A DNA stretch of 64,000 bases from Sulfurospirillum sp. (GTDB lineage Bacteria > Campylobacterota > Campylobacteria > Campylobacterales > Arcobacteraceae), in NCBI GenBank assembly GCA_030491005.1, contig JAKZMJ010000030.1, positions 186,001 to 250,000 of the forward strand, given 5' to 3'. Within the stretch, counting starts at the first letter, position 1; every line of letters begins with the position of its first letter. The translations under genes and the position numbers were made by a program. Shown one piece after another: positions 18,652 to 30,298 of this stretch. Under the pieces are notes generated by a model that was not told the DNA's origin, did no database searches, and saw only the letters and a program-made list of their open reading frames with translations.

Positions 18652-18689
18652 TTTTTCCCTTAATTGCTTTTTGATTGTATTTTCGCCAT

Positions 18690-18815
18690 TATAGCAAGAA
18701 TTCATAAAAGGATTGATGTGTTCACGGGACTAATTCGTGCAGTGGCAGAAGTTTTAAGTTTTAAGTTTTAAGTTTTAAGTTTTAAGTTTTAAGTTTTAAG
18801 TTTTAATAATGATAA
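18690..18815 (+). pseudogene. duplicate of the ribE 5' end
   Basis: Matches the start region of ribE at about 29660-29740, including the ribosome site and start (aaaaggattgatgtgttcac against aaaaggatttatgtgttcac), the codons for GLIR and MAE, and the TTTTAATAAT that follows. A run of 7-base repeats is inserted at the sixth to tenth codons. The fragment is a direct repeat of the ribE start, 11 kb away, and marks the left edge of the island. Confidence 0.75.
18751..18806. repeat. 7-bp tandem repeat, eight units
   Basis: GTTTTAA repeated eight times without interruption. The matching place in intact ribE has only two units, so the array expanded after the ribE start was duplicated. Likely a slippage-prone locus; it lies in a dead gene fragment. 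The rest of 18807-19050 holds the promoter region of the cytochrome gene and nothing else I recognise. Confidence 0.9.
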
Positions 18816-19050
18816 AGATAAAGGGGATAGGTAACTTTACTCTAATCCTTTTTTCATGGTCTTCACTTTGGAATTGGTGATAATTCCATTCCACTTTTGT
18901 ACTTGAAATTATGTTACTTTTTTACTATATATTTAAAATAATATTTTTATTTCACTCTCACTGTAGAGTTTTAGTTAAAATAATTAAGTTTCTAACAAAC
19001 TTTAAGTATTAAAAAGATATCTTAAGGTACGATAAATAAAAGGAGAAAGA

Positions 19051-19347
19051 ATGAAAAAAATAGCTTTAGCTTTAGTATGCTTATATGGTATGAGTTTTGC
19101 TGGCGATTATGATGCCACACAAGGTCAAATGTTAGCACTATCATGTGCTTCATGTCATGGTACAGATGGTAAATCAACAGCAGTTACTCCATATATAGCA
19201 GGCATGGGGAAAACCACTATGTATAAAACATTGTTAGATTATAAATATGGAAGAAAAGTGGGAACTATGATGTCTAAACATGCAAAAGGTTTTTCAGATA
19301 ATGAACTAGAACAAGTTTCGTATTACTTTTCTAAAATTAAAAGATAA
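19051..19347 (+). CDS. c-type cytochrome subunit of sulfide dehydrogenase (SoxE/FccA-like)
   Basis: 98 aa with a cleavable signal peptide (MKKIALALVCLYGMSFAGDY) and one haem site CASCH near residue 35, with Met residues later as possible sixth ligand (GMGKTTMYKTL, MMSKHAKGF). Periplasmic electron acceptor for the flavoprotein encoded 9 bases downstream. ATG follows AAAAGGAGAAAGA, a strong ribosome site. The pair fits flavocytochrome c sulfide dehydrogenase, which oxidises sulfide and passes electrons to the respiratory chain. Confidence 0.88.
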   Translation: MKKIALALVCLYGMSFAGDYDATQGQMLALSCASCHGTDGKSTAVTPYIAGMGKTTMYKTLLDYKYGRKVGTMMSKHAKGFSDNELEQVSYYFSKIKR

Positions 19348-19356
19348 AAGGATATT

Positions 19357-20637
19357 ATGATGATGAATAGAAGAAATTTTAATAAATTAGTACTTGGTTC
19401 TTTTGCACTTTCTATGGCAGCTTGTAGTAGTCTGACAAAGGTATCTTTAGCAAAAAATAAAAAAAGAGTTGTAATTGTTGGTGGTGGATTTGGTGGAGCA
19501 ACTGCTGCTAAATATCTTAAAAAATTTAGTCCTGATACTGAAGTTATTTTAATAGAGCAAAATAAAGAGTATTATACTTGTCCATTTGGAAATACTGTAA
19601 TAGCTGGTATGAATGATATTGAGTATATCAAGCATGATTATAAAACTTTAGCTAGTAAATACAAAATACAAGTAATTCATGCGAAAGTTAAAAAAGTTGA
19701 TGGTGCTACAAATAGCGTTATTTTAGAAAATGGTGATGTTATCCCTTATCATAAAGCAATAGTTTCTCCAGGTATTGACTTCAAATATGAAAAAGGTTAT
19801 GTTAAAGGTTCTGAGTTACACTCTCCTCACGCATATAAAGCAGGAGCTCAAACTTCACTTTTAAGAAAACAACTTGAAGATATGAAAGATGGTGGCACTT
19901 ATGTGATGGTAGCTCCAACGAATCCTTTTAGATGTCCTCCTGGACCTTATGAAAGAATCTCATTGGTTGCTCATTATTTAAAAAATAATAAACCAAAATC
20001 TAAAATTATTATCTTAGATCAAAAGGAAAAATTCTCCAAACAAGGACTATTCCAAGAAGGTTGGGAAGATTTATATGAAGATATGATTGATTGGAGAAGT
20101 GTTGAGTTTGGTGGTAAAGTACTTGCAGTAGATCCTATAAAAAGAATCATTACTACAGATGAAGGTGATGTTCAAGCAGATGTACTGAACTATATCCCAT
20201 CTCAAAAAGCAGGTAAATTAGCATTTGATTCAGGACTTACAAAAGGTGACTGGTGTCCTATAAATACAAAAACATTTGAATCAAGACTTGTAAAAAATGT
20301 TCATGTTATAGGTGATGCTTCAATTGCCACAAAAATGCCAAAATCAGGTTTTTCTGCTAACTCACAAGCGAAAGTTGCAGCATTACAAATTTCTCGTATA
20401 TTAGCAAAACTATCAGTGATTAATCCTCCAAAACTAGCAAATACTTGTTATAGTTTACTCTCACCTACTTATGGTATCTCTGTTGCTGCTGTTTATGAAG
20501 CACACGAAGATAAAATTATTAAGGTTAAAGGTGCAGGTGGATTAAGTCCTATGGGAGCACCAAAAGATTACAGAATGCAAGAAGCAGAATTTGCAGTTGG
20601 TTGGTATGAAAACCAAATGGCTGATATATTTAGATAA
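19357..20637 (+). CDS. flavocytochrome c sulfide dehydrogenase, flavoprotein subunit
   Basis: 426 aa FAD protein of the FccB/SoxF family. The N terminus (MMNRRNFNKLVLGSFALSMA) has a twin-arginine-like RRNF motif and a hydrophobic core, so Tat export is likely. FAD-binding VVIVGGGFGGATAAKYL near residue 38, CPFGNTVIAG and the second conserved Cys in CPPGPYERISLVAHYL supply the redox-active cysteines. GDASIATKMPKSGFSANSQA is the C-terminal FAD motif. Operon with the cytochrome gene 9 bases upstream; a strong terminator follows. Well placed for sulfide detoxification or lithotrophy. Confidence 0.92.
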   Translation: MMMNRRNFNKLVLGSFALSMAACSSLTKVSLAKNKKRVVIVGGGFGGATAAKYLKKFSPDTEVILIEQNKEYYTCPFGNTVIAGMNDIEYIKHDYKTLASKYKIQVIHAKVKKVDGATNSVILENGDVIPYHKAIVSPGIDFKYEKGYVKGSELHSPHAYKAGAQTSLLRKQLEDMKDGGTYVMVAPTNPFRCPPGPYERISLVAHYLKNNKPKSKIIILDQKEKFSKQGLFQEGWEDLYEDMIDWRSVEFGGKVLAVDPIKRIITTDEGDVQADVLNYIPSQKAGKLAFDSGLTKGDWCPINTKTFESRLVKNVHVIGDASIATKMPKSGFSANSQAKVAALQISRILAKLSVINPPKLANTCYSLLSPTYGISVAAVYEAHEDKIIKVKGAGGLSPMGAPKDYRMQEAEFAVGWYENQMADIFR

Positions 20638-20653
20638 TCAAATTCTTTGTATG

Positions 20654-20689
20654 AAAAAAAGATACTTTTATTATAAAGTATCTTTTTTT
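20654..20689 (+). terminator. rho-independent terminator after the sulfide dehydrogenase pair
   Basis: Perfect inverted repeat AAAAAAAGATACTTT / AAAGTATCTTTTTTT with a 6-base loop, ending in a T run, 17 bases after the stop codon. Confidence 0.9.
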
Positions 20690-20719
20690 ATGGATACTTA
20701 ATAAAAAAAGGTATTAATT

Positions 20720-20852
20720 ATGTTTAACAAAATTAATAAATTTATAGGTAAATATTCATACAATGATAATATATGATGCCGTAGCAAATATAAAACTTAC
20801 AAAAAATAAGAACTTTTTTGATGTAACAAATAGAGAAGAGTTTCCAAGATAA
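20720..20852 (+). pseudogene. small gene remnant left of repeat element A
   Basis: A frame with an ATG at 20720 reads MFNKINKFIGKYSYNDN and then breaks. The next frame reads on as YDAVANIKLTKNKNFFDVTNREEF and soon stops. It may be the N-terminal piece of one small gene with a frameshift; FFDVTNREEF faintly resembles a rhodanese strand. No firm identity. Confidence 0.3.
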
Positions 20853-20887
20853 AGATTATTTACAATTAAGATATAGGTATATGGAGA

Positions 20888-21073
20888 CTATACCCCTGTG
20901 ATTGAATATCCACTCTTGATAATCTTACTAATCATTGAGGTTGATAATTTCAGATGTGTTGCTATCTTGACTTGAGTATATCCATCTTTATAAGCACTTA
21001 GTATAGCTAAATCTCTTTTTATCTTAGTATCGGTTTCATAAAGTCGAAGTATATCATAAAGGTGGATATTCAA
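20888..21073 (-). CDS. 61 aa HTH peptide of element A
   Basis: A stand-alone helix-turn-helix peptide: KRDLAILSAYKDGYTQVKIA followed by HLKLSTSMISKIIKSGYS. It looks like the C-terminal HTH tail of IS200-like Y1/REP-associated transposases, but the catalytic HUH domain is absent. It begins at TTG and its stop codon lies in the element's terminal repeat, so the frame fits the element exactly. It could be an internally deleted transposase (MITE) relic or a small DNA-binding protein for the element ends. Confidence 0.5.
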   Translation of the reverse strand: MNIHLYDILRLYETDTKIKRDLAILSAYKDGYTQVKIATHLKLSTSMISKIIKSGYSITGV

Positions 21074-21087
21074 TCACAGGGGTGTAT
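20890..21087. mobile_element. ~200 bp repeat element, copy A
   Basis: Bounded by inverted ends with the core CCCCTGTGATTGAATATCCA on the left and its complement on the right. The outermost GGGGTGTAT is repeated once more just outside the right end (21091-21099). The interior is nearly identical to copies B (22628-22837), C (25427-25623) and D (26265-26464). It carries one minus-strand ORF of 61 codons. No clear target duplication is seen. Confidence 0.85.
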
Positions 21088-21101
21088 ATCGGGGTGTATA
21101 T

Positions 21102-21272
21102 TTATTCTATTAATCCATGAAATATATCTATTTCGATTTTATGAAACTTATTTAAGTAATATTTTAAAATAAAAGGAATGAAGTTACAAGTTCCTTGAAT
21201 GTCTTCATTTTGTATTTTATTTGCGATTACTTTTGAAACTTTTTTTATAACTTCAATTCTTTCTGTATGCAC
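21102..21272 (-). CDS. 56 aa cassette-borne hypothetical protein
   Basis: GTG start behind AAAGGAAAATC, reading VHTERIEVIKKVSKVIANKI and on to 56 residues, ending FHGLIE. It begins 13 bases after the GTTAGGT core end of an attC site, exactly where integron cassette genes begin. Unrecognised soluble protein. The far side of the cassette is cut by repeat element A, so no attC follows it. Confidence 0.5.
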   Translation of the reverse strand: MHTERIEVIKKVSKVIANKIQNEDIQGTCNFIPFILKYYLNKFHKIEIDIFHGLIE

Positions 21273-21284
21273 GATTTTCCTTTA

Positions 21285-21416
21285 ACCTAACGACTGAACT
21301 GAAAAACAAGGGGGTATTTTCACTTGATAGTACGGTCTTTAATTTTAGCTTATTGAAACTTTAAAGGTTCAAAATTTCGCATTATACCCTTGTTTTTTTC
21401 CTATGTTTTGTTATCC
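21285..21416. other. integron-type attC recombination site 1
   Basis: 132-base imperfect palindrome. On the minus strand it starts with the GGATAAC core, which overlaps the stop codon of the AlkD gene, and ends with GTTAGGT, a perfect GTTRRRY core. Inner arms pair well: CAAGGG(GG)TAT with ATACCCTTG, and ACTGAAAAACAAG with CTTGTTTTTTTC. The site's length, core spacing and position between two minus-strand genes fit an attC (59-base element). Confidence 0.8.
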
Positions 21417-22115
21417 ATCGGCCCTATAAAGCTCTCTTGGATAGTCCAATATCTTTAGATTTTTTTGCTCTAGTTCTTTTAAAGCATTTTTTGCAATCCA
21501 TTGCGCAGATTTATTTTGATTTTGTAAAATTCTATTCGCACTTAAAATAGCTTTTTTATGTAAATCTATATTTCTTTTTCCAATATTTCTTAAAGCCCAA
21601 TTTACTGCTTTTTTTACATAAATTCTATCATCATTCACTTCTCTTTCAATAATTTTTAAAAATCTTTCAAATATTTTATTTGAAGCATTTTTATTTGCAA
21701 ATCCATAAGATGCCATTATTGTGAAACTTACTCGTTTAATAAATTCTTTTTTATTTTTTGACCATTCTTCAGTTTTTTGTAAAGCAAATTTACTTTTAGC
21801 AAAAAAACCCATACAAAAAGAATCACAAATTTCCCAATTTTCAAATGTTTTTACCCATTTTTCTATTAACTCTTCTGTAATATCATTAGGATTATATATT
21901 TTACTACATAGTATTTTTGCTTCGTATATTTCTGTATCAAATAACTGTACAGCTATTTGATTGTTTTGTCCAATCTCTTTTGCTAATTTTTTTAAATCTT
22001 TATGATAAATTCCTAAAGAATTATTTGAAATAATTCCAAATTTCTTTTCTTTAAATATAACTTTTTTTGGATTTGAAAGTTTATGAAGTTCATCTAAAAT
22101 ATTTTTTAATGTCAT
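21411..22115 (-). CDS. DNA alkylation repair protein (AlkD-like) in a gene cassette
   Basis: 234 aa HEAT-like repeat protein of the DNA alkylation repair family, which removes or bypasses N3/N7-alkylated purines. Characteristic segments are WEICDSFCMGFFAK (~residue 93), EFIKRVSFTIMASYGFANK, and DDRIYVKKAVNWALRNIGKRN (~residue 160), including the conserved Trp and Arg of the lesion-binding surface. ATG lies about 25 bases after an attC core and the TAA stop falls inside the next attC core, a typical compact cassette. It is the only cassette here with a clear function. Confidence 0.85.
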   Translation of the reverse strand: MTLKNILDELHKLSNPKKVIFKEKKFGIISNNSLGIYHKDLKKLAKEIGQNNQIAVQLFDTEIYEAKILCSKIYNPNDITEELIEKWVKTFENWEICDSFCMGFFAKSKFALQKTEEWSKNKKEFIKRVSFTIMASYGFANKNASNKIFERFLKIIEREVNDDRIYVKKAVNWALRNIGKRNIDLHKKAILSANRILQNQNKSAQWIAKNALKELEQKNLKILDYPRELYRADG

Positions 22116-22143
22116 TGATATTCCAATTTTTATTCATTATGAT

Positions 22144-22276
22144 GGCTAACGGCTGAAGCAAAGAACAAGTGACCCTCAGTCTGTTTGCTAACTTATTTTT
22201 ATAACTATACTATTTTAGTTAATTTATGCTTAAAAATTTGATGGGTCACTTGTTTTTTTTCGGTGTTTTGTTGGAT
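22144..22276. other. integron-type attC recombination site 2
   Basis: 133-base palindrome with cores ATCCAAC (minus strand start, RYYYAAC) and GTTAGCC (minus strand end). Inner arms are GAACAAGTGACC and GGTCACTTGTT. It matches site 1 in layout (AAC GGCTGAAGCAAAGAACAAG against AAC GACTGAACTGAAAAACAAG). It lies immediately before the AlkD gene. Confidence 0.85.
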
Positions 22277-22489
22277 GCTTTAGTGACTTTTAAGTTTTTT
22301 TATTTACTAGCTATAGTTAGATATATTTCTAAGTTCTTTAATATTCAAATTATTTTAAATATTTATCTTTTCATTGTTTATGAAAGTTTATTTTAAATTA
22401 GAAATTTATGTTACTATTTTATAGCTTTTTAAGTTGTTGATTCTTTAATAAATATCTTTTATTTTTTGAAACTTTTTCTTAATGTTGTC
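22277..22489. other. cassette without an evident gene
   Basis: About 215 bases between attC 2 and attC 3. No reading frame with a start and ribosome site is visible on either strand; the DNA is extremely AT-rich. Cassettes of this kind may carry promoters, small RNAs or nothing; none can be shown. Confidence 0.6.
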
Positions 22490-22627
22490 ACCCAACGGCT
22501 AAGGTGAGGAACGATGGCGATATTTCGTACTTAATTGTTCGGCTTTCAAGTTTCTTTATGAGACAGTTAAAAGCTTTGAATTTTCGCAGTATAGCCTCGT
22601 TTCTCTCCTCCGAGACTGTGAAAGAAC
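22490..22627. other. attC-like site 3, outer core lost
   Basis: The minus-strand end has GTTGGGT (perfect GTTRRRY) followed inward by CGTTCCTCACCTTAGCC. The opposite arm GAGGAGAGAAACGAGGC pairs with it. The other core (RYYYAAC) is missing: the sequence runs through GGAGACAG-like bases and straight into repeat element B. Confidence 0.65.
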
Positions 22628-22812
22628 TACACCCCTGTGATTGAATATCCACTCTTGATAATCTTACTAATCATTGAGGTTAATAATTTCAGATGTGTTG
22701 CTATCTTGACTTGAGTATATCCATCTTTATAGGCACTAAGTATAGCTAAATCTCTTTTTATCTTAGTATCGGTTTCATAAAGTCGAAGTATATCATAAAG
22801 GTGTATATTCAA
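22627..22812 (-). CDS. 61 aa HTH peptide of element B
   Basis: Identical to the peptide of copy A except Leu for Ser in HLKLLTSMISK. It keeps an open frame, which may reflect recent spread of the element more than selection. Confidence 0.45.
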   Translation of the reverse strand: MNIHLYDILRLYETDTKIKRDLAILSAYKDGYTQVKIATHLKLLTSMISKIIKSGYSITGV

Positions 22813-22837
22813 TCAGATATTCAATCACAGGGGTGTA
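22628..22837. mobile_element. ~200 bp repeat element, copy B
   Basis: Same ends and interior as copy A. The right end is scrambled by a small internal duplication (TATTCAATCAGATATTCAAT). It adjoins the broken outer core of attC 3 on one side and supplies the last codons (ITPL) and stop of the J-domain gene on the other, so it probably cut that gene's 3' end. Confidence 0.85.
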
Positions 22838-23754
22838 ATTTTGATTTGTTTATTTAGTTGTTTTAGTTCATCTTCAAAATCTTGTTTTAAATTATTAAAA
22901 TAATAATCTAAATTATCAATATGTGATAATATTTTGTAAGTATCACTATTTATCAATGTATCTAATTCATTTTGAAGTATATTTAATTTTTTTCTAATAT
23001 CATTAATTTTTAATTTTAATAACTCACTATCATTAAGGCTATCACTTGCCATATTAAATTGTATATCTTGCTCTAAATTATTTAAAATTTCTTTAACTTT
23101 ATTTAAATTATTCATTGAATATGCTTCGTTTAATTCTTTAAATATATTTGTAGCCTCCTCTTTTCTATCCTCATTAACTGTATCTGGATGACACAATTTT
23201 GCACTTTTCTTGTAAAGTTTTTTTAATTCTTTTTTATCATCATTTGAAATATTTGGTATATTCTTTTCTAATTGCTGTTGATATTGTTGTTTAAAATTAT
23301 TATAATCATTAATTGATTCTTTGTACTTATCTTTTAAATTTGGATTACTTTTAGATTGTTGCTCTAAAATTTGTTTTCGTAGTTTTAAAATTTCTTCTAC
23401 TAAATTTCCAACTTCTACATTATATTGTATATTAAATTCATCAATTAAATGTATATATTCTTCTTTTTTTTCATTTAGCTTTTGTAATTTATGTTCTAAT
23501 ACTTTAAGTTCTAATTTTAATCCTTGAATCTCACTATCTTCGTACTTTATTATACCTGAGAATTTTTTTAAATATTTTTCTATTAAATTTATAACTTGTT
23601 CATATTGAACATCATTAATTAAGTTTAATATGTCTTTTATTTCATTATCATAATTTAATTGTTTTATTTTTAATACTTGTATTTCAATAATCTCATTATC
23701 TTCGATTGGTATCGAATTTTTAATAATTTCTAGTCATTTAATAATTTCTATCAT
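22825..23754 (-). pseudogene. coiled-coil protein with J-domain motif, early in-frame stop
   Basis: Restored, it reads about 309 aa: MIEIIK then LEIIKNSIPIEDNEIIEIQ and a long coiled coil, then a J-domain-like helix with the HPD tripeptide (ELKKLYKKSAKLCHPDT, ~residue 187), then more coiled coil. HPD is the signature by which J proteins stimulate Hsp70. ATG at 23754 follows AGGAGA. Codon 7 is TGA, created by an 18-base tandem duplication (TAGAAATTATTAAATGAC type); without one unit the frame is clean. The 3' end is overwritten by repeat element B. It directly follows the LRR gene. Confidence 0.65.
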
Positions 23755-23756
23755 TT

Positions 23757-24414
23757 AATATTCTCCTATTCTTTTTTCTAAAAGATTTATAGTCTCATTT
23801 AATACTTTGTTACTTCTCCATTTTTGATCTTTTTTTGTTTTTTTAATAAAACTACTAAGTTTATAGTCAATCTTTTCTAATGGATTGTTAACTATATTAA
23901 AATCCTCAATTTTTGTATTGTTAATAAATTCATCAGGAATTATTTTAATAAAATTATTATTTAAGTGTAATATTTTTAAATTTTTTAAATAATGTATACT
24001 TATAGGAAATTCTAATATAACATTATGATTTATCTCTAATGTATGTAGTTTTTATAAATTTTTAATTGAAGTAGGAATTTTAGATATTTTGTTATTTGAT
24101 AAATTTAAGTACATTAACTTATTTAAATTAAATAGTTCTTTTGGTATATATGTTATATTGTAATTTTCAAGGGATAAAGTTTCCAATGAAAGTAATTTTT
24201 TCTTTTCTCTTGGTAAGCCTATATCCATATACTCATCATTCATAAACAAATCATCTATATTAAATTCATCTGCCCAATTCCATAATTTTTGTATCCAACT
24301 ATCATCTAATAAATCCAATTTATCGTTTAGTATTTTATTTGTGATACTAATTAAATTTTGTGATTTATTCAAAGCTAATTTTGAGTCTTGTTTTAATGTT
24401 AATTTATTATTCAT
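23757..24414 (-). pseudogene. leucine-rich-repeat protein gene with nonsense codon
   Basis: About 218 aa when read through. LRR units are visible: LSLETLSLENYNITYIPKEL, LNKLMYLNLSNNKISKIPTS and, after the stop, FPISIHYLKNLKILHLNNNF and IIPDEF. A TAA at 24052-24054 interrupts IKNL-stop-KLHTLEI, where CAA (Gln) is the obvious ancestor. There is no frameshift, so this is a single point change. It overlaps the HEPN-like gene by 4 bases (ATGA) and ends 3 bases before the J-domain gene. Confidence 0.7.
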
Positions 24415-25298
24415 TTTTGTTCCATTATTTGAGATAAAGATTGTATATCATTTAATCTTTCTTGTTTATTATTATGTTCACTTTGTAAAAAATCAATTTC
24501 ATCATATATAGCATCATCTATTATTGAGTTATTAGAGATTAAAGTGTTAATATATTGTTCCATTAGTAAATCATCCAAATTTAAAGATTTTATATTATTC
24601 AATAGTATTAATAATTCAGTATTTGATTTATTTTGTATTATAAATAATAATAATTCAATTGTAATGATTTTATCATTTAAAAAATTATATTCTTTTTTTA
24701 TAAATATTTTATATGGTTTTGAATTAGAACGAATTTCATCTGTCAAAATATTTTGTTTTCTTGCTTCTTCTTGAATTATTACATAGTATTTATTTGAAAT
24801 TGTTGATATTAAATTACCTATAAATATTTTTATATCATCATTATTTTTTGTAATTTCTATTTTTATATCATTTGAAATTATATATTTTGTATATTTAGTC
24901 AAAAAAGATATAAATTCTTTATATTCTTGATTATACTTTTTGTCTATCTTGAAATCAAATCTATCATATCTAGCTTTATCATAGAATATATTTAAAATTT
25001 GTATAAATTTATTGTGTTGTTTATCTGTTTTAATGTGATAGTATCTTTTTATTTCTTGAAATAACTGTTCATGGTTATGAGTTTTAATTTCAAATTTTAT
25101 TTCCTTATTTAAAGAAATAATAATTTTAAATAATCTCTCAATACCTACAGATATATTATATAAAAAATCAAATATTTCATCTTCATAGTAAAAAATTTTC
25201 ATTTGATGAAAAATTTTTATTCCATTAAATATACAATTACCAGATATATCTAATTCAGTACCTAAATTAAAATTTTTCCATAATTCAATGTTTGTCAA
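24411..25298 (-). CDS. HEPN-like helical protein, 295 aa
   Basis: Function not established. Residues ~40-120 look like a HEPN-type four-helix domain (FLYNISVGIERLFKIII, then KTHNHEQLFQEIKRYY and FYDKARYDRFD). The family's usual RNase motif (R, four to six residues, H) is not seen, so it may be a non-catalytic HEPN or something else. The second half is helical and acidic. It starts at TTG 25298, overlapping the end of the upstream gene fragment; the LRR gene overlaps its stop. Together with the LRR and J-domain genes it forms a tight three- or four-gene unit. Confidence 0.55.
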   Translation of the reverse strand: MTNIELWKNFNLGTELDISGNCIFNGIKIFHQMKIFYYEDEIFDFLYNISVGIERLFKIIISLNKEIKFEIKTHNHEQLFQEIKRYYHIKTDKQHNKFIQILNIFYDKARYDRFDFKIDKKYNQEYKEFISFLTKYTKYIISNDIKIEITKNNDDIKIFIGNLISTISNKYYVIIQEEARKQNILTDEIRSNSKPYKIFIKKEYNFLNDKIITIELLLFIIQNKSNTELLILLNNIKSLNLDDLLMEQYINTLISNNSIIDDAIYDEIDFLQSEHNNKQERLNDIQSLSQIMEQK

Positions 25299-25426
25299 TT
25301 GATTCCTTAATTTTTAATTTTTCTCTAATTTTGTATGATTCTATCATACCAATAGCAAAATTTCTTTCTATTTGTTCTTCTTTTGTAATTTTACCATCAT
25401 AAATCGCACCTTTTTCTTCAAGAAAC
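25285..25426 (-). pseudogene. 3' fragment of the first gene of the HEPN/LRR/J cluster
   Basis: An open stretch ending in ITKEEQIERNFAIGMIESYK and a stop at 25285. Its upstream part is cut off by repeat element C, which abuts it. It overlaps the HEPN-like gene by 14 bases, as the rest of the cluster does. Family unknown. Confidence 0.5.
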
Positions 25427-25614
25427 TACACCCCTGTGATTGAATATCCACTCTTGATAATCTTACTAATCATTGAGGTTGATAATTTCAGATGTGTTGC
25501 TATCTTGACTTGAGTATATCCATCTTTATAAGCACTTAGTATAGCTAAATCTCTTTTTATCTTAGTATCGGTTTCATAAAGTCGAAGTATATCATATAGG
25601 TGGATATCAATCAC
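25426..25614 (-). CDS. 62 aa HTH peptide of element C
   Basis: Same peptide as in copy A, but it starts MIDIHLYD because of the altered right end. Open throughout. Confidence 0.45.
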   Translation of the reverse strand: MIDIHLYDILRLYETDTKIKRDLAILSAYKDGYTQVKIATHLKLSTSMISKIIKSGYSITGV

Positions 25615-25623
25615 AGGGGTGTA
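25427..25623. mobile_element. ~200 bp repeat element, copy C
   Basis: Same structure as copies A and B, nearly identical inside; one T is missing in the right end (GGATATCAATC). Flanks are AAGAAAC on the left and ATTTGAT on the right, close to those of copy B (AAAGAAC and ATTTTGAT). This hints at a preferred target and no target duplication. It truncates the first gene of the HEPN/LRR/J cluster. Confidence 0.85.
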
Positions 25624-25796
25624 ATTTGATATTATTTTGGAAGATTTTAGCTATATAAATTTTCACTTAGAATTGCTGTTTACCCACAACTTAGTATATT
25701 TTTTAAGGAGATTCTGGTAAAATATGAGAAGTGATTAAAAAGAAACTGGTGGGTTTACACAGTTTATTTTACACTCTCAAGAAAAAGGAGATAGTT

Positions 25797-26065
25797 TTGT
25801 TAAAAATATTTTTTTTATTAGTATAATATTTAGTACTCAAATTTATGCTAAAAAAGATTGCTCTTGTCAAGATATACTGGATTCAATAGTAGGTCGTAGT
25901 TGTAAAAATAATCCAGTACAAGAATCAATAAAAGTAGATGGTAAATTTTTGTCAGTAAAGGAAAAATGTTATTGTAAGCTTAAAAATAAGAGATTTTCTG
26001 CTAAAAATATTTTTATTAAATGTCCACAAGATAATGTTGTATATATAGGAGGAAATGAATTATGA
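25797..26065 (+). pseudogene. small secreted Cys-rich protein, frameshift in a T run
   Basis: Restored length about 89 codons: a signal peptide (MLKIFF then ISIIFSTQIYA) and a mature part with seven cysteines (CSCQDILDSIVGRSC, KCYCK, KCPQD). TTG start at 25797 behind AAAAAGGAG. The eight-T run at 25809-25816 needs a ninth T to join the start to the rest. This could be a slippage (phase-variable) site, true decay or a sequencing error. It ends ATGA-coupled to the next small gene. It is one of few plus-strand genes in the island. Confidence 0.55.
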
Positions 26066-26184
26066 AAATACAATTTATTAAGTTCATACTAATATATGCC
26101 ATTGTTGGGCAATTATACTTAAATGCATTAGGATTAGAAGAATATAGGGCATCTCTAAAAATAGACAATAAAATTAATACTTAA
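26062..26184 (+). CDS. 40 aa membrane peptide
   Basis: MKIQFIKFILIYAIVGQLYL then a short polar tail ending IDNKINT: one hydrophobic helix that could be a signal or anchor. The ribosome site ATAGGAGGAAATGAATT is strong, and the start overlaps the stop of the Cys-rich gene, so the two are translationally coupled. Function unknown. Confidence 0.45.
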   Translation: MKIQFIKFILIYAIVGQLYLNALGLEEYRASLKIDNKINT

Positions 26185-26264
26185 TTAAATAATTAAAATC
26201 TTATATTTAAAGCATATAAAACTACTATTTCGCTACAATTACTATAAAAACTACACCCCTAAAC

Positions 26265-26464
26265 TACACCCCTGTGATTGAATATCCACTCTTAATAATC
26301 TTAACTAATCATTGAGGTTGATAATTTCAGATGTGTTGCTATCTTGACTTGTGTATATCCATCTTTATAAGCACTTAGTATAGCTAAATCTCTTTTTATT
26401 TTAGTATCAGTTTCATAAAAGTCGAAGTATATCATAAAGGTGGATATTCAATCACAGGGGTGTT
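26265..26464. mobile_element. ~200 bp repeat element, copy D (degenerate)
   Basis: Fourth copy. The outermost CTACACCCCT is doubled on the left (26251-26260) and GGGGTGTTATTA is doubled on the right (to about 26478). Two single-base insertions (aatcttaactaatc, cataaaagtcg) destroy the HTH frame. The rest of 26465-26621 holds a short plus-strand gene remnant reading LYKLLDESGLTLNNIQIFKF and nothing else. Confidence 0.8.
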
Positions 26465-26621
26465 ATTAGGGGTGTTATTATTATTTTTAGCTAACTTGAA
26501 CTAATTCAGTGCATGGCTTTAGATAAAGATTCTGAATGATTTGTATAAATTATTAGATGAAAGTGGTTTAACATTAAACAATATACAAATATTTAAGTTT
26601 CTTTTTGATGATATGTGATTA

Positions 26622-27821
26622 TTACTTTTTTAGTGAACTAATAATATCAGCTATTGTTATACTTGTTTCATCTTGTATAATACCAAAATTTGTTGGTCTA
26701 AAAATATTATCTAACATAATTTTCTTATCTTCTTTTGCAAAACTTTTACCTTCTTTTAGTAAAGCTAAGTATGTTCTAATCATTATTACTCTTTCCTGTG
26801 AATCTATTGAAAGATGATAGTTACTAAGTGTTATTTTAATAAGTATTTTAATAAACCATATCGATAATGTTGTTGATAAAGCTAAAAAACCATATTTCCA
26901 TATTTCAATTGTTTTATGATCTTGATGATTCATAAAGTCAAATACAAGGTATAGCAGGGCTATTGATAAAACAACTGACACACCAAAGTAAATCCAATAA
27001 TTTGAATTAAAACTTTTACCTTTCGATTCCCAAAATTTATATGATATTTGTAACTTTATCTCCTTTAAAACTGATTCTTTTGCATTTGAATAATCTGTTT
27101 CAATATTTTTGATATTTTTTTGAATTAAATTTAATTCTTGAAAGTTTTGTTTATATTTTGATAATTCATCTTCTAAATCTTTTAATTTACCATTTGTTTT
27201 TAATCTTTCATCTTCAAGTTTTGAAATTTTATCATTTGTTATATCAACTTGTTTTGTATCATTTTCTATTAATAAAGTTCTAAATGAATTGTCTCTTATA
27301 ATTTTTATTATAACTTCGATATATGATTTATAATAATCAATTATTTCGTTATCAAATATTATGCTATATAGTTTCTTTTTTGTAATATGCATTGCAGTTG
27401 TTTCATCACCTGCTTTTACTATTATAGAATCTTCATTGTTTTTAAATAATTTAAATGGTTTTTTTTCACTTTTTGTTTTTAAAATTAAAGTACATTCTTC
27501 TTGAGTTTGATTATTTAATAAACTAACTAATTCATCATATCGTTCTGAAAATTCATTTTTAGTAATTTCTTCTAAGTTTTGTTTGTTTGAAGTTGGTGCA
27601 TTCTCAATTAAGTAAGATATGCTATCTAGTATATTTATTTTATTTCTAATAATATCAGATTCTGAATTTGTTTTACTCATAAAATACTCTAATTTACTAT
27701 GTATTGTATGTACAAATTCATCTTCCGTTGTTTCATCAATTAATGTAATATTACTTAGATATGAATATATAGCATTCTGAAATTTATTAAAATCTATATC
27801 ATCTTTTAATTTAGATTGAAG
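26622..27821 (-). pseudogene. coiled-coil membrane protein gene, 3' part (split by an IS)
   Basis: About 400 codons from SKLKDDIDFNKF to ADIISSLKK. It has a soluble N-terminal part, a coiled coil (residues ~195-260, KISKLEDERLKTNGKLKDLE) and two membrane helices (NYWIYFGVSVVLSIALLYLV; YGFLALSTTLSIWFIKILI), then MIRTYLALLKEG and LDNIFRPTNFGIIQDE. The C-terminal region resembles DUF6161-type proteins; that match is from memory and uncertain. The open frame can be read from a TTG at 27839, but those first residues (MNLQVAL) are encoded by the terminal repeat of the IS. The real 5' end lies beyond it at 29314-29387. Confidence 0.7.
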
Positions 27822-29313
27822 AGCTACTTGCAAATTCAATCACAATCAAATATATAATTCTTAATAGTAACTATTTTAAGCTTTAAAAAAATAGTTATTA
27901 TTTCTAACTTGCATAATTTACAATATATTTACCAAATTTATTAAAAAATCACATTTTTTCTCCATTCCTTATGGTTAAATTGTAAAATTCAGTATTTTTA
28001 TATAAATTTCTATCAATGGTCATGTAATAAGTTTTAAACTTTGATGTATACAAATAGATAAAATTCCAAATGCTAAAACGCAAGCTACCTTATTTGCCCC
28101 TTGATAGTATATTTTATCACATCCAAAGTCATCTTTTAAGTATTTATTTACTCGCTCTACCATACTTCTTTGCTTGTAGTGATGTTTATCTGATGCTTGA
28201 GTCAAATTTAAATATTCAAATTTTTCTTTTTCCTCTTTTGCTAAAGCTATTTTTTCTTTTAGCACTTTAGAGTTTTTAGGATTTATATCTATGATTGGTT
28301 TATGATTTAACTCTTCAGAATACTCTGCAATAATATCACTATCATATCCAGCATCAAGTAAATCATGAAGATACATTACTCTTTTGCTAGTTTCATTTAT
28401 AAGTGGAAGTGCTACAGAACTATCATGAACATTTGCACCACTATAAAATGCAACTACTGGTATATCTCCATCAACAACACTAATATGAAGTTTACCACCT
28501 ATCCAAACTTCTCTATTACCTTTTGAATTTTGTTTAATACCAACTCCACATGATGTTGATACAAGTGATAACATATCATTAGTAGTTTTCATATCTTTTT
28601 GAAGTTCAAGAATCTTTGGTTTTATAGCTTCTCTTTTCTCACCTTTTTTAGGTCTTCCAACTTTATTTTTTGCTTTCTCTTTTTTCTCAACTTTTACAGG
28701 TTTTTCCCTAAGTGGTATTTTAGTAGCATCACTTGCATTGTACATAAATATAGTATCTGACAAATACTCTTCTATGAATTTTTGATGAGTTTTCTCAGCT
28801 ATTTTCATATCACTAAGTTGTTCAAACACTCTACTAAATTTTGATTCACTAGGAATATCTATTTTATATCTCCATCCACATAATACTCGCAATATTCTAT
28901 CCCTATGCAGTCTATGAATTAAATCTCTTGTTGTTTGTATATTATAAACTGATTTAGCAATAAATGCCCTTGCTATTTCTTCTCTATCTTTTGGAGTGTT
29001 TGTAATTGTTACAATTGTAACATGCTTTTCTATTTGGGCAAAATCTAATATTTTTATTAATTTTTCTTCTTTAGTGCTTAGTGTTCCTAGTTGTTCTTTT
29101 ATCTCAGGAAATAAACAATTTTCATGGTTTATAATCCTAAGCCACATTTTTGAAAGATTTGAAGATAATTTTGGTATAATATTTTTCATAAGTTGAATCT
29201 CTTTTCTGTTAAATTTTAGGATATAAAATTATAACTTATTTGAAATTTGATTCAACTTTTTTTACAAATAAAAACCTAAATTATGAACTTATTTGCTAAT
29301 TTGCAAGTGGCTC
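27822..29313. mobile_element. IS4/IS5-like insertion sequence, 1,492 bp
   Basis: Terminal inverted repeats of 16 bases, GAGCTACTTGCAAATT on the left and GAGCCACTTGCAAATT on the right (complement). It is flanked by a 4-base direct repeat TGAA (27818-27821 and 29314-29317). One transposase gene. Removing the element and one TGAA restores an uninterrupted reading frame across the junction (NNNIVQ-SKLKDD), which proves the boundaries. Confidence 0.92.
28020..29189 (-). CDS. DDE transposase (IS4/IS5 superfamily)
   Basis: 389 aa, full length. DUF772-like N-terminal part (KFSRVFEQLSDMKIAE), a Lys-rich linker with the GRPKKG motif, then DDE domain segments ISVVDGDIPV (first D), LLDAGYDSD (second D) and RSMVERVNKYLKDDFG (E). 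ATG at 29189 with a weak AGAG ribosome site. The gene looks intact, so the element could still move. Exact IS family needs a database comparison. Confidence 0.88.
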   Translation of the reverse strand: MKNIIPKLSSNLSKMWLRIINHENCLFPEIKEQLGTLSTKEEKLIKILDFAQIEKHVTIVTITNTPKDREEIARAFIAKSVYNIQTTRDLIHRLHRDRILRVLCGWRYKIDIPSESKFSRVFEQLSDMKIAEKTHQKFIEEYLSDTIFMYNASDATKIPLREKPVKVEKKEKAKNKVGRPKKGEKREAIKPKILELQKDMKTTNDMLSLVSTSCGVGIKQNSKGNREVWIGGKLHISVVDGDIPVVAFYSGANVHDSSVALPLINETSKRVMYLHDLLDAGYDSDIIAEYSEELNHKPIIDINPKNSKVLKEKIALAKEEKEKFEYLNLTQASDKHHYKQRSMVERVNKYLKDDFGCDKIYYQGANKVACVLAFGILSICIHQSLKLIT

Positions 29314-29387
29314 TGAACTATATTATTATTTAATCTTCTTTTTGTATTTTCTAATGCTAATTTTATTTTTTTAGTAGATTGTTGCAT
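29314..29387 (-). pseudogene. coiled-coil membrane protein gene, 5' part
   Basis: Reads MQQSTKKIKLALENTKRRLN then NNIVQ up to the IS. ATG at 29387 follows AAAGGAATTTA. Joined to 26622-27821 it gives an unbroken protein of roughly 420 aa. It begins just after an attC-like half site (29404-29462). Confidence 0.8.
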
Positions 29388-29403
29388 TAAATTCCTTTCT
29401 TAT

Positions 29404-29462
29404 GATAACACTTGAGTTGAAGGACAAGAGTTATTGCGACTTGATACTTTTGTCTTTTCGAG
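29404..29462. other. attC-like site 0 (partial)
   Basis: GATAAC, a spacer, then AAGGACAAGAG paired with CTTTTGTCTTT. The left half aligns with attC 1 and 2 (AAC CTTGAGTTGAAGGACAAG against AAC GGCTGAAGCAAAGAACAAG). The outer core on the right is not recognisable (AAATTC in place of GTT). It lies directly upstream of the split coiled-coil gene. Confidence 0.45.
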
Positions 29463-29571
29463 ATAAATCAAATTCTTTATACATGGTCTTCTCTTGGATT
29501 TAGTGATGATTTTACTCCCCATTCTTGCGAAGTTCATTTACTAATGGTGATTATCTTTTCTTTTTCATTTA

Positions 29572-29605
29572 TTTTAACACAGAATTATTTTATTCTGTGT
29601 TAAAA
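29572..29605. terminator. hairpin terminator upstream of ribE
   Basis: Perfect stem TTTTAACACAGAAT / ATTCTGTGTTAAAA with a 6-base loop, T-rich on both sides, so it could stop transcription in either direction. It insulates the island from ribE. Confidence 0.75.
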
Positions 29606-29686
29606 TTTAGCTTAGCACTGCATTCTCCTTAATTCATTTTTAATCACATTTTAGCTACTGTAATAAGAATTTATAAAAGGATTTAT

Positions 29687-30298
29687 GTGTTCACAGGCTT
29701 AATTCGTGAGATGGCAGAAGTTTTAAGTTTTAATAATAATGTATTAACACTAAAGGCAAAATATACACCAAAAATTGGTGATTCAATTGCTATTAATGGA
29801 GCTTGTTTAAGTGTAATAAAAATCGCCTCTTCTTCTTTTAGTGTTGAGATATCGCCTGAGTCAACAAGAATATTGGCAATGCAAAACTATACAAAAATAG
29901 TACATATTGAACCTGCCATGATGATGGGTGATAGATTTGAGGGACATATTGTTCAAGGGCATATTGATTGTTTAGGTAAAATTAAAAGTATAAAACAAAA
30001 TGGAAATTCAAGTGATTATATAATTACTTTGCCTAAGGAATTTATGAAATTTATTTCTCCTAAAGGTTCCATTAGTATTGACGGTGTATCTTTAACAATA
30101 AATGAAGTTTTTTTGGATTCTTTTAGATTAACTATAATTCCTCTTACTATTAAGAATACACTTTTTAATACATATAAAGTTGGAACATTGGTAAATATAG
30201 AAACCGATATGTTTGCTAGGTATGTTTATAATATTTTTTCTAAAAATGATAAAACACTTTATTGGGATGAAGTTGATAAGATTATGGCTTCTTATTAG
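29687..30298 (+). CDS. ribE: riboflavin synthase
   Basis: Converts two 6,7-dimethyl-8-ribityllumazine to riboflavin; acts as a trimer. 203 aa with two lumazine-binding repeats: MFTGLIREMAEV at the start, NGACLSVI, then GHIVQGHIDCLG and SIDGVSLTINEV in the second. GTG start after AAAGGATTTAT; MFTGL is the invariant family N terminus. A duplicated copy of this start lies at 18690-18815. The downstream order ribE - 64 aa protein - recA is on one strand. Confidence 0.94.
   Translation: MFTGLIREMAEVLSFNNNVLTLKAKYTPKIGDSIAINGACLSVIKIASSSFSVEISPESTRILAMQNYTKIVHIEPAMMMGDRFEGHIVQGHIDCLGKIKSIKQNGNSSDYIITLPKEFMKFISPKGSISIDGVSLTINEVFLDSFRLTIIPLTIKNTLFNTYKVGTLVNIETDMFARYVYNIFSKNDKTLYWDEVDKIMASY

Follow-up and report, generated by a model that had tools for sequence, protein, structure and literature searches.

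The 64,000-nt stretch of Sulfurospirillum sp. DNA analysed here (the window, on contig C30 of the assembly) raises the question of whether the imperfect palindromes around an alkD-like gene form a genuine array of integron gene cassettes and, if they do, how such an array came to lie far from any integron integrase gene. The features concerned are listed in Table 1; positions on other contigs of the same genome are given as contig:position.

Table 1. Features of the cassette array and its surroundings (positions in the window; core boxes of the attC sites are given with their sequences)
Feature	Position	Strand	Remarks
Insertion of ~10.9 kb relative to the empty mnmG-ribE site of sister genome G041	18764..29626	.	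Flanked by direct repeats
MITE-like repeat of ~200 bp	20887..21086	+	Terminal inverted repeats of ~25 bp
Start of next cassette	21087..21290	-	Cut by repeat element; short ORF from GTG at 21272, 12 nt after core A
attC site A (132 nt)	21285..21416	-	R'' GGATAAC (21416-21410), R' GTTAGGT (21291-21285)
alkD cassette	21291..22149	-	859 bp between two G/TT crossover points; boundaries inferred from the known crossover position
alkD-like gene (234 aa)	21411..22115	-	PF08713 DNA_alkylation, full length, 102.6 bits, E 3.1e-29
attC site B (133 nt)	22144..22276	-	R'' ATCCAAC, R' GTTAGCC (22150-22144)
Gene-less cassette (346 bp)	22150..22495	-	Ends in site B; related copy with both flanking sites at C31:38075-38548 (86.8%)
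attC site C	22490..22621	-	R' GTTGGGT (22496-22490) intact; R'' damaged, AAC changed to CAC
MITE-like repeat	22626..22837	+	Abuts the damaged R'' end of site C
MITE-like repeat	25425..25623	+
MITE-like repeat	26263..26463	+
Gene with DUF6161/AbiZ-like match	26622..27839	-	PF19658 E 1.2e-14; AbiZ E 1.2e-11
DDE transposase of an IS1182/IS5-like IS element	28020..29189	-	Inserted in the first cassette
Degenerate attC	29403..29509	-	Right half recognisable (CAAGTCGCAATAACTCTTGTCCTTCAACTCAAGTGTTAT), left half gone

The three minus-strand imperfect palindromes with outer cores that had been proposed in the initial annotation are present, but the left end of site C is damaged: its covariance match stops at 22621 and not at 22627, and a repeat element begins at 22626. 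The R'' box of site A departs from RYYY at two positions and retains the AAC, the R' box of site B has one mismatch with GTTRRRY, and site C agrees with the core consensus in part only, its R' box fitting and its R'' box being damaged. Alignment showed that the R'', spacer, L and R' boxes are conserved between the sites of the window and sites adjoining intact intI genes.

We then scored the sites with covariance models. Model R1 was made from 16 attCs of class 1 integrons taken from plasmid records, while model R3 was made from ten attCs of ~133 nt from related Arcobacteraceae genomes and contained no sequence from the present genome. The source arrays of R3 and of a further model, R2, with the loops excised, were located with the integron integrase model TIGR02249. 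The standard layout of an integron places the array 5' of intI and in the opposite orientation; the training sites of R3 came mostly from arrays lying directly 5' of an intact intI in the opposite orientation. Arrays of the relatives that are located beside an intact intI hold sites of 69 nt and of ~133 nt. R1 recognised the 69-nt sites (best E 3e-8), which ties the family to the class 1 attCs, and did not report the ~133-nt attCs beside intact integrases when default filters were used. R3 gave matches in all six relatives that have intI; among eight relatives without an IntI match, four had none at E<=0.01 and four had one or two.

The results of the search with R3 showed that all three sites of the window are scored, in one orientation: site A with 100 bits (E 2.1e-16 in the whole 2.69-Mb genome and 9.5e-19 in a 12-kb search), site B with 56 bits (E 1.7e-7) and site C with 55 bits (E 3.1e-7), the last two values being from the whole-genome search. 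The degenerate site at the other end of the insertion, which is probably the upstream end of the array, scored 28 bits (E 0.1 genome-wide and 4e-4 in the 12-kb search). When default filters were applied to the 64-kb window, R3 missed everything, including the 100-bit site, and turning the filters off recovered the sites; we attribute these misses to the filters and not to the model because the 12-kb search without filters finds the sites. R1 gave nothing convincing in the window and no score at the three sites, which counts against the attC reading; with default filters R1 also misses the long attCs beside intact integrases. R2 gave chance-level matches only in the window, and Rfam gave zero matches there. 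Failure of the covariance models at all three sites had been named in the initial annotation as grounds for giving up the attC assignment; this was the outcome for the class 1 model and not for R3. Because R3 was built from other genomes, its E-values (rounded, 2e-16, 2e-7 and 3e-7) argue that the sites are not due to chance, and on model and anatomy together the three palindromes can be assigned to real integron attC sites. Scans for palindromes with loose cores were dropped, as shuffled DNA gave as many matches as real DNA, and were replaced by core-restricted scans and the covariance models.

Recombination in integrons uses the folded bottom strand of the attC, with the crossover at G/TT. 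The predicted folding energies of the bottom and top strands were -12.0 and -11.0 kcal/mol for site A, -20.3 and -17.9 kcal/mol for site B, and -16.4 and -13.4 kcal/mol for site C. The bottom strand, which is the plus strand of the window, is at least as stable as the top strand at all three sites, with a small gap of 1.0 to 3.0 kcal/mol, and by comparison with shuffles site B alone was far off (z -5), the energies of sites A and C being unexceptional. From known integrons we infer that the attCs of the window recombined through their folded bottom strand, with which the folding agrees weakly. It is doubtful that site B, with its short R stem, and site C, with no normal R'' box, are competent at present.

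Comparison of the array with other loci of the genome located the ends of the shared segments. The segment made of site C, the gene-less cassette and site B has a related copy on C31 (Table 1), C5:10119-10233 repeats the end of site B (95.7%), and C15 and C2 have copies that are shorter or weaker; the similarity of the site B copies on all four contigs stops at or beside GTT. Before the GTT, 96/101 and 99/103 positions are identical between the window and C31 and C5, respectively, while after it 59/76 and 65/86 aligned positions match, values which are close to the null, though high within its range (free end gaps flatter both, and the null was computed alike), and different genes follow. The null from unrelated A+T-rich DNA was 46 +/- 14 matches per 100, with a maximum of 67. 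At the level of sequence, similarity that ends at GTT reads as the trace of past IntI crossover at G/TT, and it supports the attC assignment strongly and independently of the models.

The alternative that the palindromes are ordinary terminators, a possibility raised in the initial annotation itself, or transposon ends resembling attC, in keeping with their A+T-rich stems and with the unexceptional energies of sites A and C, was rejected as having practically no chance of being correct, since it is contradicted by the genome search with R3 (E down to 2e-16) and by the cassette breakpoints at GTT, while the boxes are common with sites beside intact intI genes and a terminator-like match is absent from region 21000-22700.

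The alkD-like gene has the compact layout of a cassette gene, with one gene starting soon after R' and ending inside the next attC. Site A is the downstream end of this cassette, and the stop codon of alkD (TAA, 21413-21411) falls within the R'' box of site A, as had been noted from the sequence. The claim that genes start 13 to 25 bases after a core was close, but the ATG of alkD is located 28 nt past core B and the GTG of the following ORF 12 nt after core A. No ORF of at least 60 aa was found between sites C and B. The alkD-like cassette remains intact, and a promoter upstream of it or within it may drive its expression.

The nearest solved relatives of the alkD product by sequence were AlkF (3zbo) and a related hypothetical protein, both weak (E ~3e-6), while AlkD itself was unmatched even at E<=10. 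Because these relatives are AlkF and a hypothetical protein and not AlkD, the product can be called, as far as the evidence goes, AlkD-like at most. Relatives of the product have a patchy distribution in the family (6/104 genomes) and are frequent in Bacteroidota and in some Gammaproteobacteria; one close relative came from an Arcobacter sp. record. No attC flanks were found around AlkD relatives elsewhere, either with R3 (0/9 loci) or with a crude scan (0/26 loci), and a limited search of the open-access literature found nothing joining integron cassettes with DNA alkylation repair.

The initial annotation had described the array as one without an integrase. This was correct locally, as a profile search gave no IntI match on contig C30, but did not hold for the genome, in which broken copies of intI exist. 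Three near-full copies were found at C15:4807, C2:166389 and C23:29443, with 381, 370 and 369 bits, respectively (TIGR02249, cut-off 265), together with several fragments. All three near-full copies and two fragments in which the frame could be read carry an identical in-frame TAG, to which a TGA is added in C2 and C23; the C15 copy is a mosaic without four residues whose C-terminal part stays open. Sequencing error is an unlikely source of a stop that all copies share, and the intI of the sister genome G041 is uninterrupted. The locus, having at least two attCs and no nearby intI on its contig, thus agrees with the CALIN structure first proposed for it; it is not a complete integron, the intI genes being located on different contigs and broken by stop codons. 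Since the near-full intI copies are all interrupted by stops, the array would be a piece of a large, scattered and decayed integron and not one that never had an integrase. The C2 and C23 copies are included in a segmental duplication of 9.5 kb (98.4%; C2:166.1-175.6 kb and C23:29.2-38.7 kb).

The genome is thus one without a findable intact integrase, every near-full copy being broken in the present assembly, which is a draft of 33 contigs, 97% complete, with several arrays at contig ends, so that an intact intI may be missed. It is improbable that the integron is still active and its cassettes mobile, through an intact intI in an assembly gap or through readthrough of the C15 TAG. The array on C15 does reach the contig end, C13 is a 3.5-kb contig with three attCs and the C-terminal part of the C15 intI is open, and in class 2 integrons a stopped intI regains activity once the stop is suppressed (PMC2426708), which counts for an active integron. 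However, at least two fragments share their TAG with all three near-full copies, the C15 copy lacks four residues, two copies have a second stop, and little of the genome is missing at 97% completeness.

Comparison with the sister genome G041 showed that the array is part of an insertion between mnmG (gidA) and ribE, which are adjacent in G041 and in most other relatives examined. Besides the array, the insertion contains a cytochrome and a flavoprotein gene, which are located on its left side. Imperfect direct repeats of ~107 bp (81%) are located at its ends (18657-18763 and 29626-29733) and contain the ribE start region and sequence from upstream of mnmG. Several tandem copies of the motif AAGTTTT, at ~18755-18810, follow the left copy of the ribE start.

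Off-target insertion of cassettes is listed among three origins of CALINs (PMC8618304), and the array, instead of being a fragment of a broken integron, may have been seeded at this position by IntI acting in trans, its cassettes having been inserted at places other than attI while the integrase was still alive. The dispersal of attCs over about a dozen loci, the clean empty mnmG-ribE site of G041 and the related cassettes with GTT junctions at different arrays favour such seeding. We nevertheless regard it as somewhat unlikely: the cytochrome and flavoprotein genes lie inside the insertion but outside its attC-bounded part, off-target insertion would not create the diverged ~107-bp direct repeats, and the 9.5-kb duplication around intI shows that large rearrangements occur in this genome.

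The explanation that we prefer, and that is very probably correct, is that of a true attC array, formerly shuffled by IntI, whose integrases are now pseudogenes and which is itself likely to be frozen. IntI would once have recombined the folded bottom strands at G/TT, by which the cassettes were assembled and shuffled; the intI genes are today pseudogenes with one common stop, so that the array is most likely frozen, and repeat elements and an IS are now eroding it.

Erosion by these elements is visible at three places of the array, where the R'' box of site C is gone, the IS interrupts one cassette and a repeat truncates a second. Near-identical copies of this IS sit in other arrays. The repeat of ~200 bp encodes a 61-aa HTH-like ORF and has 36 matches in the genome and none in the 103 other genomes of the family; 29 of the 36 are located within 10 kb of an attC or an intI copy, a zone that makes up ~12% of the genome. 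A few copies border or disrupt an attC, and ten are spread over the array at C5:2-14 kb, spaced about a gene length apart. It is conceivable, if quite unlikely, that the repeat prefers arrays, inserts in or beside attCs and gradually replaces them as cassette separators, thereby freezing the array. The gene with the DUF6161/AbiZ-like match probably belongs to the cargo carried by the part of the array that is now eroded.

The search with R3 and R2 found at least 30 attC sites at about a dozen loci of the genome, a count which is a lower bound as the best candidates alone were scored. These loci include C31:29-48 kb, C5:104-112 kb, C15:0-4 kb and C13. The array at C15:43-3871 adjoins the intI pseudogene at C15:4807 in the standard layout, with five one-gene cassettes beside intI and one gene per attC.

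At least one attC of the same type was found in 56 of 104 Arcobacteraceae genomes, the present genome being among the three richest, and TIGR02249 scored above its cut-off in 16 of the 104, 13 of which have no internal stop. The statement that such arrays are little known in Campylobacterota could not be maintained in view of these numbers and of the literature, in which the integron-bearing phyla already include Campylobacterota (PMC8618304) and CALINs are reported from Sulfurimonas autotrophica and Sulfurovum (PMC10295459). Beyond passing mentions, a limited search of the open-access literature gave nothing on Arcobacter attC arrays. Integrons and leftover cassette clusters are thus common in Arcobacteraceae, and R3 serves as an attC model specific to this taxon, the long sites of which are missed by a model derived from class 1 integrons.

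The array resembles described CALINs (PMC9024848, PMC8618304) in having at least two attCs in one orientation, compact cassettes and no nearby integrase, and differs from them by its A+T-rich sites of ~133 nt, of which one has a damaged core, and by its invasion by repeats and an IS. It shares its type of attC with the sedentary chromosomal integrons of Arcobacteraceae relatives (G067, G085, G099 and others), in which an intact intI lies beside the array, whereas here the copies are broken and located on other contigs. Integrons with intI pseudogenes, such as class 2 integrons with their intI2, also have an in-frame stop in intI and retain their cassettes; an early survey found about one third of intI genes to be pseudogenes and more than one intI in one fifth of bacteria (PMC2426708). 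The present case differs in that one stop is common to several dispersed copies of a single genome. Class 1 attCs (aadA2, blaVIM-2 and others) have the same RYYYAAC...GTTRRRY architecture and L stem but are shorter and G+C-rich, and the model made from them finds the short attCs of the relatives and not the long ones of the window.

Many of the attC loci carry defence genes, and the genome would illustrate clearly how a cassette reservoir with such genes (Zorya II among them) is retained after the death of the integrase. Further cargo includes a GNAT acetyltransferase and a ParE-type toxin. The Zorya type II set (ZorA2/ZorB2/ZorE2, C5:107060-109838) lies between the attCs at C5:106989 and C5:109865, like a multi-gene cassette. 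Genes for a HinP1I-type restriction enzyme, a cytosine methylase, a GmrSD-like protein and an FRG-domain protein are located between attCs at C31:32066-35778, and a second HinP1I-type gene is present on C13.
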